Position numbers and translations under genes: made by a program
The notes under the pieces: model-generated
The model's database searches: none
The model's input: only the letters and a program-made list of their open reading frames with translations
Told to the model about the DNA's origin: nothing
Shown: positions 20,636 through 23,822 of the stretch, piece after piece
Numbering within the stretch: position 1 is the stretch's first letter
How the letters are laid out: each line of letters starts with the position of its first letter
Assembly (NCBI RefSeq): GCF_905250085.1
Contig: NZ_CAJNOB010000004.1
Coordinates: 1 to 61,680 of the forward strand
Direction of reading: 5' to 3'
Length of the DNA: 61,680 bases
Source: Candidatus Methylacidithermus pantelleriae
GTDB lineage: Bacteria; Verrucomicrobiota; Verrucomicrobiia; Methylacidiphilales; Methylacidiphilaceae

Positions 20636-21280
20636 ATGGTGGACGAACTTCTTTCTCGGCACCGGGCGGCTTGCGAGGAACAGACGCAGGACCCGCAGGT
20701 GGCTCCCCCTACGGAACCTTCGGATCGCGAACTTGTGGTGCGAACGAAAAAGGGAGAACCCGAAGCATTTGACTGTTTGATTCAGAGGTACCAGCGGCGA
20801 CTTTTCAACGTCATTTATGGGATTGTGCTCAACTATCAAGATGCGGATGACGTTTTACTGGAAACACTTGTCAAAGCCTATCGAAACATCAATCGCTTCC
20901 GGGAGGATTCTTCCTTTTACACATGGATTTACCGGATCGCAGTCAATAGTGCGATTAACTGGAGGCGCCGGGCGTACACAAGGCCCACGGTAAGTCTTGA
21001 GGCAGATGAGGAAGAACGCCCGCTCCCTGAGGAGTTGGTGGATCAAAGGAGCGGTCGAGAGTCGCTGCGGCGATTGGAGCTTGAAGAACTACAAAAGAAA
21101 TTGAACGAATGCTTGTCACGGTTGTCTTACGCTCATAGGGTGGTAGTGACCCTTTTCGATCTTGAGGGAATGAGCCATGGGGAGATCGCCCAAATTTTGG
21201 GCTGCTCGGAGGGTACGGTTCGCTCCCGGTTGTTTTATGCCCATCAACAACTAAAACGTTGTTTGCAAGGCTATTGGTAA
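20636..21280 (+). CDS. ECF-type RNA polymerase sigma factor
   Basis: This 214-residue sigma-70 family protein directs RNA polymerase to a special promoter set. Region 2 is visible as AFDCLIQRYQRRLFNVIYG, then DADDVLLETLVKAYRNINRF, then FYTWIYRIAVNSAINWRRR. Region 4 is SYAHRVVVTLFDLEGMSHG with EIAQILGCSEGTVRSRLFYA. The frame is open from 20492 but ATG 20636 has AGGAG about ten bases upstream and makes a normal ECF N-terminus. It heads a run of four genes on the same strand: a membrane protein 20 bases on, a trypsin/PDZ protein overlapping that, and an OmpA/MotB-like protein. Such layout suggests it controls its own operon and responds to an envelope signal. Confidence 0.92.
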   Translation: MVDELLSRHRAACEEQTQDPQVAPPTEPSDRELVVRTKKGEPEAFDCLIQRYQRRLFNVIYGIVLNYQDADDVLLETLVKAYRNINRFREDSSFYTWIYRIAVNSAINWRRRAYTRPTVSLEADEEERPLPEELVDQRSGRESLRRLELEELQKKLNECLSRLSYAHRVVVTLFDLEGMSHGEIAQILGCSEGTVRSRLFYAHQQLKRCLQGYW

Positions 21281-21300
21281 ACCTGATAGAAGGAAAGAGG

Positions 21301-21816
21301 ATGAAGAACCGCGCCACCAAGGATTCTCGATATCGGGACGAGGAGAATCACCGCATAGGCCGTCTGGTTGCTTTTTTGCTTGAAGAGGAAATTGACCGAA
21401 AGGTAGGAGATAAGTATTTCCAGTCACTGTCGGGCCGTTTTCGGCAGCGGCTCCAAGCCAGTCTGGTTCAGGAACCCACCCTTCCTGAAAGGTTCCTTCG
21501 ATGGTGGGCCGTTCATGCTGGGCATATGGTCCTGTGGCCATCACGAGCGCGCTGGGCGATGAGCATTGCAATGGTGTTACTTTCCCTTCTTGGCGTGGCT
21601 CGCTGGAAAGAAGCACGAGTCAAAGGGACTTTTTTGGCAGGTTCGAACCTCTCATCAACTCCTGCCCGTGTAGAGACGCAGCTTGTGACACCCGCGCGCA
21701 ATCGTGCCCCCTCAGTCGCTTTGCCCCCGGTTGCTCCTCGGGTCATTCCGCGGCCTGAGGCCGAGTATGTGTTCACCGGGGCATCAGAAACGTATGATCC
21801 CACCGTCGCCTTTTAG
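21301..21816 (+). CDS. Single-span membrane protein, candidate anti-sigma factor
   Basis: I do not recognise the family. The 171-residue product has a charged cytoplasmic-type N-terminus of about 80 residues (RIGRLVAFLLEEEIDRKV). One hydrophobic segment follows at about 78-100 (ARWAMSIAMVLLSLLGVARW), then a proline-rich C-terminal part (SVALPPVAPRVIPRPEAEY). This N-in, one-span topology, directly behind an ECF sigma gene, is that of many anti-sigma factors. I do not see the zinc-type HxxxCxxC motif, so the role is inferred from position. ATG 21301 follows a GGAAAGAGG ribosome site. The next gene starts inside its last codons (23-base overlap), showing translational coupling. Confidence 0.6.
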   Translation: MKNRATKDSRYRDEENHRIGRLVAFLLEEEIDRKVGDKYFQSLSGRFRQRLQASLVQEPTLPERFLRWWAVHAGHMVLWPSRARWAMSIAMVLLSLLGVARWKEARVKGTFLAGSNLSSTPARVETQLVTPARNRAPSVALPPVAPRVIPRPEAEYVFTGASETYDPTVAF

Positions 21817-22855
21817 GGTTGTCGGGCGATTGGTTGTTTTTCTTTTAGGCGGGTGTCTTCTGACCTGTCACGATCTTGTCGGGCAAGGGCTTTTCGAAAG
21901 TATTGAGCGCGAGGTCAATCGTATCTTTCTTACGGCCAGAGAGGGGGTAGCTCGCGTTTGGGCTCGCCAGGGCGAATTGACGACAGTCGGGACGGGGTTT
22001 TTTGTGGCTCATGATGGGAGTCTTCTTACGGCTTGGGGTGTCGTCGGATCTTCCCGGGAGGTTGCCGTGGAGATCGACGGGCGCCGGTATGCTGCTCAGG
22101 TGGTGGGGGGCGATCGGCGGAGTGGAGTGGCCCTGGTTCGGGCCGCTGCTCCGCAATCGCGGTACAAGATTCTGGCTATGGGTGATTCAAGGTGCCTACA
22201 GCCTGGGAGTCCTGTGGTTGCCGTCGGCTATCCCTTAAATCTTCCCGCAGCTCCCAGTTTTGGGCTTGTTGCAGGGATGGATACGCAGTTTCTTAACCAA
22301 TTTTTCCCTACCACCCACCTTCGAACTGATGTGTCCGTCAGTCCGGGGCAGATTGGTTCTCCCTTGCTCAATGATCATTGCGAGGTCGTTGGCATGGTGG
22401 TCATGGTAGCAGATAACCGGCGGATTACCTATGCCCTGCCAAGTCAAGCTCTGGAGCGCATTCGGGACGATCTGGTCAGCTACGGTCGTGTTCGATACGG
22501 GTGGGTTGGCGTTGAGGTCGAGGAGGCCCCGGGCGAGATGGTGGAGGGAAAATTTGCCCGGATCAGCCGTCTAATTCCTGGGACGCCCGCGGCAAGCAGT
22601 GGCCTTCAGGCAGGTGATATCCTGTATGAGCTCCAAGGAAAACCCATTCATTATCCCAGGGACGTAGTAGATCCCGCTTTTTATGCTCGGGTAGGGCAGC
22701 GATTAAGCGTCGCCGTCTTGCGCGGTGAGACCCTGCTGCGCTTTTCTCTGCCTGTCGTAGAGAGGCCCATCGCTTCCGAAAATGGATTGCTTGTGGCTCC
22801 CTCTAAGGAACGGGCCTCTGAAGAGGTTCGTAATGTCAATGTCTCTAGGCCGTAG
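21794..22855 (+). CDS. Trypsin-like/PDZ protein lacking the catalytic triad (pseudo-HtrA)
   Basis: The 353-residue protein has an N-terminal signal or anchor (LVVFLLGGCLLT), an HtrA/DegP-like trypsin fold at about 45-230, and a PDZ domain at about 235-330 (LIPGTPAASSGLQAGDILYELQG). HtrA landmarks are aligned but altered. The His motif TNxHVV reads TAWGVV (G82). The Asp motif DLAVLK reads GVALVR (G111). The Ser motif GNSGGP reads GQIGSP (I187). All three catalytic residues are therefore gone while the surrounding fold is kept. It likely works as a periplasmic sensor or chaperone rather than a protease. ATG 21794 overlaps the previous gene; the frame upstream of it (from 21704) lies in that gene. 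The ECF operon context suggests a role in sensing envelope state. Confidence 0.8.
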   Translation: MIPPSPFRVVGRLVVFLLGGCLLTCHDLVGQGLFESIEREVNRIFLTAREGVARVWARQGELTTVGTGFFVAHDGSLLTAWGVVGSSREVAVEIDGRRYAAQVVGGDRRSGVALVRAAAPQSRYKILAMGDSRCLQPGSPVVAVGYPLNLPAAPSFGLVAGMDTQFLNQFFPTTHLRTDVSVSPGQIGSPLLNDHCEVVGMVVMVADNRRITYALPSQALERIRDDLVSYGRVRYGWVGVEVEEAPGEMVEGKFARISRLIPGTPAASSGLQAGDILYELQGKPIHYPRDVVDPAFYARVGQRLSVAVLRGETLLRFSLPVVERPIASENGLLVAPSKERASEEVRNVNVSRP

Positions 22856-22898
22856 TGCGAGAAAGACGGAATCGTTAAGCGATGGCTTTGCCTGAAGC

Positions 22899-23822
22899 AT
22901 GAGCGAACCCTTGCGACTTCCCGATTCAGAGGACCACGATCCGGCAAAATCGTGGTTGACGATTGCCCGTCCGGCTACCCCTCGTCGATGGCTCGTTGCC
23001 TTTTCTTGGAGTGGAGCGGGAGCATGGATGCTTTTCCTTGGGCTTACTGCGTTTCTGGTAACAATAGCGGCATATTCTTTCCTGGGATACCGGAAAATGG
23101 AACAACGCACCCGCTCCCTTGCCGAAGACAACCTTTTGCTTCTTCGGGATAACCAACGCTTGCGATCCGAGGTGGACAAACTCCAGAGCGAACTAGCCAA
23201 AGCCGGGAGTCTTTTACGGACCGAAGAGGCCCTTCTCGAGCGGACAGCTCAGACGCTTCGTTCCGTGCAGGAACGGGAGGAAAAACGAGGGGGTGCACTC
23301 GGGCTTGCACAAGACCAGGAACGGAGCCGGGCTATTGCCTACGGGCGTGCCTTGGAACGAGCGAAAAAACTCCAAACTTGGGTAAGCGAAAAACATTTGA
23401 CCGGAATTTCGGTCGGCGTCGTTCAGGACAAGGTACGTATGACGTTGGCACAGGAGCTTCTTTTTCGTTCAGGAGAAACCCGGCCCCATGCAGAAGGGAT
23501 CCGATTGTTGAGAGAGCTATCGGCCGTGGTTCAACCCTTGGAAAACGATGAGGAACTCTGGGTGGTTGCTCATACCGATTCTCTTCCTCCTTCTTCCTGG
23601 GCCCAACCAACTTTCCCCAGTAACTGGGAGGTAAGTTCGCATCGAGCCGCTTCGGTGGCTCGACTCCTGGCGACGGAGGGCCATTTTCCCACTGGGCGAC
23701 TGGTTGCTTTAGGCTGCGCAGAAGGTAGGCCGGTTGCACCCAACGACACACCCGACGGAAGAAAATGGAATCGAAGGATCGTCCTTTGGATCCTCCGTTC
23801 GCCCCTCTCGGAAAGGCCCTAA
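22899..23822 (+). CDS. OmpA/MotB-family peptidoglycan-binding protein
   Basis: The 307-residue protein has a short cytoplasmic start, a membrane anchor at about 38-62 (AWMLFLGLTAFLVTIAAYSF) and a coiled-coil-like stretch (about 68-150, rich in L, E, R, K). An OmpA C-terminal domain follows at about 185-300. Its landmarks are ELLFRSGETRPHAEGIRLL, VVAHTDSLPP, FPSNWEVSSHRAASVARLL and DTPDGRKWNRRIVLWI, with the peptidoglycan-binding Asp and Arg of the family. The inner-membrane anchor plus PSNWELS-type motif is closer to MotB or TolR/OmpA-like linkers than to an outer-membrane barrel. No motA is nearby, so it is not obviously a motor part. It is the last gene of the sigma/pseudo-HtrA cluster, 43 bases after the previous stop. 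Confidence 0.85.
   Translation: MSEPLRLPDSEDHDPAKSWLTIARPATPRRWLVAFSWSGAGAWMLFLGLTAFLVTIAAYSFLGYRKMEQRTRSLAEDNLLLLRDNQRLRSEVDKLQSELAKAGSLLRTEEALLERTAQTLRSVQEREEKRGGALGLAQDQERSRAIAYGRALERAKKLQTWVSEKHLTGISVGVVQDKVRMTLAQELLFRSGETRPHAEGIRLLRELSAVVQPLENDEELWVVAHTDSLPPSSWAQPTFPSNWEVSSHRAASVARLLATEGHFPTGRLVALGCAEGRPVAPNDTPDGRKWNRRIVLWILRSPLSERP

Follow-up and report, generated by a model that had tools for sequence, protein, structure and literature searches.

How might an HtrA-like protein that lacks the catalytic residues of a protease take part in signalling through an ECF sigma factor? The question is raised by a four-gene locus in Candidatus Methylacidithermus pantelleriae (order Methylacidiphilales, class Verrucomicrobiia), whose genome of 2.46 Mb also codes for a PmoA/AmoA-family protein. 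The locus lies in a contiguous stretch of 61,680 nucleotides, referred to here as the window, and its features are as follows.

20636..21280, + strand: ECF sigma factor, RpoE-like, 214 aa; Sigma70_r2 and r4 above cut-off; first gene in 35 of the 37 loci of the order
21301..21816, + strand: probable anti-sigma factor, 171 aa, one transmembrane segment, apparently of an undescribed family; assigned from position, topology and profile
21544..21600, + strand: predicted transmembrane segment of the anti-sigma factor, residues 82-100, from hydropathy
21811..21813, + strand: codon of the C-terminal F171 of the anti-sigma factor, a PDZ-ligand-like end and the one column without variation when the order is aligned
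21794..22855, + strand: pseudo-HtrA, with an N-terminal hydrophobic segment, a dead trypsin domain and one PDZ domain
22037..22039, + strand: codon of pseudo-HtrA G82, at the catalytic His position
22124..22126, + strand: codon of pseudo-HtrA G111, at the catalytic Asp position; Gly in 37 of 37 members of the order
22352..22354, + strand: codon of pseudo-HtrA I187, at the catalytic Ser position
22499..22753, + strand: PDZ domain of pseudo-HtrA with a GWVGV loop, whose W237 and G239 do not vary across the order
22899..23822, + strand: OmpA/MotB-like protein with a transmembrane segment and a coiled coil; family-specific accessory

The four open reading frames that a sequence-only reading had placed on one strand were all recovered, together with their spacing. 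The sigma and anti-sigma genes are 20 bases apart, the anti-sigma and pseudo-HtrA genes overlap by 23 bases, and another 43 bases separate the latter from the OmpA/MotB-like gene. Sigma regions 2 and 4 are both present in the first product (Pfam Sigma70_r2, 5.8e-16; r4_2, 3.5e-14). A sigmaE-like autoregulatory promoter, sought upstream of the sigma gene in 35 loci, showed no enrichment.

The 21794-22855 product has the trypsin fold and the C-terminal PDZ domain of HtrA/Do proteases (Pfam Trypsin_2, 2.2e-24; PDZ_2, 1.7e-6) and lacks the His-Asp-Ser triad of the active ones. It matches the NCBIfam model of the Do/DegP subfamily at 1.4e-42, which is under that model's cut-off. When it is aligned with DegP-type chains of solved structure (best 8.7e-35), G82 falls on the His, G111 on the Asp and I187 on the Ser, which is the placement originally read from the letters of the sequence. 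A single-sequence AlphaFold model of the protein reached a pLDDT of 36 and was not used as evidence.

Orthologue alignments were used to look for the triad in the relatives, as had been proposed. It occurs in none of the 37 members of the order, the Asp position being Gly throughout and the Ser position V, I or L. Among 81 distinct linked HtrA proteins of the class the full triad is likewise absent; the His position is never His, and the single triad residues that are left are a Ser in five proteins and an Asp in one. H, D and S are kept in 29 of 30 unlinked HtrA loci, which were fetched from genomes without a linked copy. In family f11 little of the trypsin domain can still be recognised, and the PDZ loop and the aromatic tail of the anti-sigma factor are mostly kept. 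As the triad is missing from all 37 proteins of the order, with such uniform replacements at the Asp and Ser positions, the protein is better described as a long-conserved pseudoprotease than as a product of decay. The linked HtrA probably became a pseudoprotease early in the history of the family. Three residues of the pseudo-HtrA, R109, F171 and H175 (window 22118-22318), do not vary among the 37 members of the order; they could be part of a new binding site within the inactive trypsin domain.

A 539-aa DegP-like paralogue in the window's genome has intact triad motifs (TNNHVV, DPLADIAL and GNSGG). Because paralogues in its own genome keep these residues, the loss of the triad is specific to the HtrA of the operon. 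The genome also codes for M50 proteases and for two small trypsin-like proteins, L003 (G000:C16:20614-21033) and L005 (G000:C6:30631-31104), whose open frames span 277 and 357 aa and which keep triad-like residues.

A close orthologue of the pseudo-HtrA, with 38-46% identity, is present in 38 of 39 relatives of the order; only G026, whose genome is 86% complete, has nothing closer than distant HtrA matches. The gene order sigma/anti-sigma/HtrA, with a small one-span open frame in between, is seen in 35 of the 37 loci of the order (window included) and is thus far beyond chance. No sigma match was found at the other two loci, one of which sits at a contig end. Profiles built from the middle protein and from pseudo-HtrA detect this cluster in numerous other families of the class, and a wider profile for the middle protein, run over 384 genomes, matched 334 of them and 155 of the 171 genera. 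With this distribution, the cluster of sigma factor, anti-sigma factor and pseudo-HtrA is ancient. In two genomes of genus g17 (loci L159 and L165) the anti-sigma gene is kept, a sigma gene or an HTR (linked HtrA) gene is not recognisable beside it, and the tails end in E.

The fourth gene is distributed differently. Its product carries an OmpA domain (3.8e-9) behind the transmembrane segment, and shares this segment, the coiled coil and the OmpA-like C-terminal domain with MotB/MotD and other OmpA-like peptidoglycan-binding proteins; unlike MotB/MotD, it scores far under the equivalog cut-offs and belongs to this locus in one family only. Within the window's family the contig extends far enough in 12 members, and each of these has the gene after pseudo-HtrA; the other families of the order all lack it at this locus and keep the three-gene core. 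Thus, the expectation that relatives would show the same four-gene order holds for the core and fails for the fourth gene, which was rejected as a core part and is regarded as accessory because it is confined to one family. The 12 of 12 occurrence would suit a sensor that reports the state of peptidoglycan by way of the pseudo-HtrA, but the retention of the core in families that lack the gene makes such a role most improbable. The earlier idea of a peptidoglycan-binding partner as the cell-wall reporter finds no support as a central part of the system, as the gene is limited to one family and the core spans the class.

The product of the second gene (21301-21816) has a single hydrophobic segment and no match to Pfam, NCBIfam or PDB profiles, and thus no recognisable known anti-sigma domain; its relatives give scattered weak Pfam matches only. 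One transmembrane segment is predicted in 140 of 155 homologues, and the positive charge is heavier on the N-side in 120 and lighter in 7. Since the charge is mostly heavier on the N-side, the topology of the family is taken to be N-in, C-out; the charge balance of the window's own member is atypical (2 on the N-side versus 4). A gene beside that of an ECF sigma factor, and a product with one transmembrane segment that is N-in at the level of the family, are what is expected of an ECF anti-sigma factor. By position and topology, the protein is therefore probably an anti-sigma factor, and the profile searches indicate that its family is undescribed and class-wide.

The constraint on the last residue of this protein, F171 in the window, extends far beyond the order. 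In the 93 rows of the class with a linked pseudo-HtrA, the anti-sigma factor has a terminal F or Y 90 times and a terminal M three times, and F/Y ends are found in 16 of 39 rows without it. In control proteins of the same loci such ends are rare (sigma factors, 3/114; HTRs, 0/80; other open frames, 18/479, or about 4%). This near-universal aromatic C-terminus in loci with a linked pseudo-HtrA is the new observation made here. Mapped on the sigma-factor tree, the HTR-bearing rows show 7 changes of the last residue, always among F, Y and M, and 33-44 changes at each of the seven positions before it; in the 39 rows without HTR the last residue changed 14 times. Lineages that bear an HTR are thus under strong constraint at this position. 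Rows that lack the HTR gene have often lost the tail and end in R, K, P, Q, N or H. A tree-based test of co-loss yielded 6-7 pairs, 2-3 of them concordant, 0-1 discordant and the rest alike (median p 0.25), and because the independent events on the tree are few, the association of tail loss with absence of the pseudo-HtrA gene is suggestive only.

The last residue might be kept for some other cause, such as gene overlap, translation coupling or an interaction with the membrane or with BAM, the two proteins never touching each other. A nearby part of the tail does resemble an overlap effect. The Y of the conserved Y(D/E) is present in 35 of 57 frame-1 overlaps versus 4 of 23 loci without overlap, and its presence mostly goes with the overlapping start codon (ATG) of the next gene; Y(D/E) was rejected as part of a YxF-like ligand and is not counted as one, because it is likely a start-codon overlap. 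The terminal residue, however, is F, Y or M in all 23 loci whose HTR frame starts only beyond the stop codon of the anti-sigma gene (21 F/Y, 2 M), and overlap between the genes is thus no explanation for it. With its transmembrane segment and N-in topology, the anti-sigma factor is unlikely to carry a BAM signal. An explanation of this kind is very unlikely as a whole.

In clade f12 (L157, L161, L162, L166, L225-L232) the anti-sigma frames are larger, about 280-340 aa, and end in KF, and pseudo-HtrA was neither linked nor detected. Three further loci without pseudo-HtrA keep an F/Y end. These loci would be accounted for if a live HtrA, or some other PDZ protein, read the tail as an activator or a degron, the pseudo-HtrA being only a co-regulated chaperone or decoy. 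Recognition of such ends by the PDZ domains of live HtrAs has been described (PMC8545111). Yet the last residue is much less constrained without pseudo-HtrA, even though live HtrAs are present there, and the anti-sigma and pseudo-HtrA genes adjoin and often overlap, which leaves a reader of this sort rather improbable. Locus L248, an exception at first sight, has a GAIF tail and no linked HTR; the same genome codes, away from the sigma locus, for an unlinked 504-aa pseudo-HtrA, L269 (G560:C1:184035-184982), with F, T and T at the triad positions.

The PDZ domains of DegS and AlgW recognise the C-terminal F peptides of misfolded outer-membrane proteins (PMC8545111, PMC3582582, PMC8103513), and the anti-sigma tail resembles such a ligand. 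BamA of the window's genome ends in FDVGYAF, and the last residue of the 28 readable BamA ends in relatives is F in 25, Y in 2 and L in 1. No co-variation was seen between F or Y in the anti-sigma tail and F or Y in BamA.

By combining these observations, it is possible to outline a class-wide envelope-stress module, which we regard as somewhat more probable than its opposite. The PDZ domain of pseudo-HtrA would bind the C-terminus of the anti-sigma factor itself, by its aromatic last residue and free carboxylate. In E. coli RseB holds RseA, and in the same manner the bound pseudo-HtrA would hold or shield the anti-sigma factor. Misfolded outer-membrane proteins, which in the class tend to end in F (GYAF in BamA here), would then compete for the PDZ domain and free the anti-sigma tail. 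Live proteases, namely the triad-bearing HtrA paralogues and an M50 site-2 protease, would subsequently destroy the anti-sigma factor and thus release the sigma factor. What the sequences themselves show is the operon, its conservation through the class, the loss of the triad in all linked members, the kept PDZ loop, and a constrained last residue with its raw association with the pseudo-HtrA gene. That the second protein acts as an anti-sigma factor, that the two proteins bind, that tails of outer-membrane proteins compete, and whether the sigma factor is restrained or activated, are matters of inference. The original suggestion that signalling works through binding agrees with a dead HtrA linked to the sigma/anti-sigma pair, with the kept PDZ loop and with the ligand-like tail. 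A binding role for pseudo-HtrA is accordingly the one favoured by the sequences, and the cutting that it cannot perform may be done by another protease.

Binding could also serve the opposite end. As an adaptor, the pseudo-HtrA would bind the tail and pass the anti-sigma factor to a live protease, thereby activating the sigma factor. Triad-bearing HtrA paralogues are available in the same genome, and MamO, which promotes MamE-dependent proteolysis, is a precedent (PMC4794232). However, the live protease is not linked to the locus, and the data are compatible with restraint of the sigma factor as well as with its activation; we consider an adaptor unlikely. In MamO and other magnetosome pseudoproteases, as in pseudo-HtrA, the HtrA/trypsin fold has outlasted catalysis. 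MamO, which is encoded in magnetosome islands, keeps the His and Asp, has Thr for Ser and binds metal (PMC4794232), whereas in pseudo-HtrA all three triad positions are changed and the gene is linked to an ECF sigma/anti-sigma pair.

The tethering and competition proposed above can be compared to the RpoE-RseA-RseB-DegS-RseP pathway of E. coli and the AlgU-MucA-MucB-AlgW pathway of Pseudomonas. An RpoE-like ECF sigma factor, a single-span anti-sigma factor and a periplasmic HtrA-PDZ protein are common to all of them; M50 and live HtrA proteases are encoded in the genome, and F ends of the outer-membrane protein type are available as ligands. In contrast to those pathways, the operon has an inactive HtrA, it is the anti-sigma factor itself that carries the PDZ-ligand-like end, and this factor matches no known family. 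Proteolysis of the DegS-RseA type calls for an HtrA, linked or dedicated, that can cut the anti-sigma factor; here the linked HtrA lacks the triad, which the unlinked paralogues keep. The PDZ domain of DegS binds F peptides of the outer-membrane protein type; here the PDZ loop is kept and BamA ends in F, and pseudo-HtrA may bind such peptides too. The system appears RseA/RseB-like, yet without the cleavage by a linked HtrA that would make it DegS-type. No earlier description of it was found in the collection of open-access papers that was searched.

A wider conclusion is put forward tentatively, as a possibility that we hold to be less than even. Sensing without a protease in ECF signalling may be ancestral to much of the class, with an anti-sigma tail that mimics the C-terminus of an outer-membrane protein and is weighed by a pseudo-HtrA against the tails of misfolded ones, which compete for one PDZ pocket. 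If this is true, a large bacterial class would sense damage to its envelope with a dead protease, an inversion of the DegS logic. It would also add an undescribed, class-wide family of anti-sigma factors, and a prediction that rests on one residue, the terminal F.
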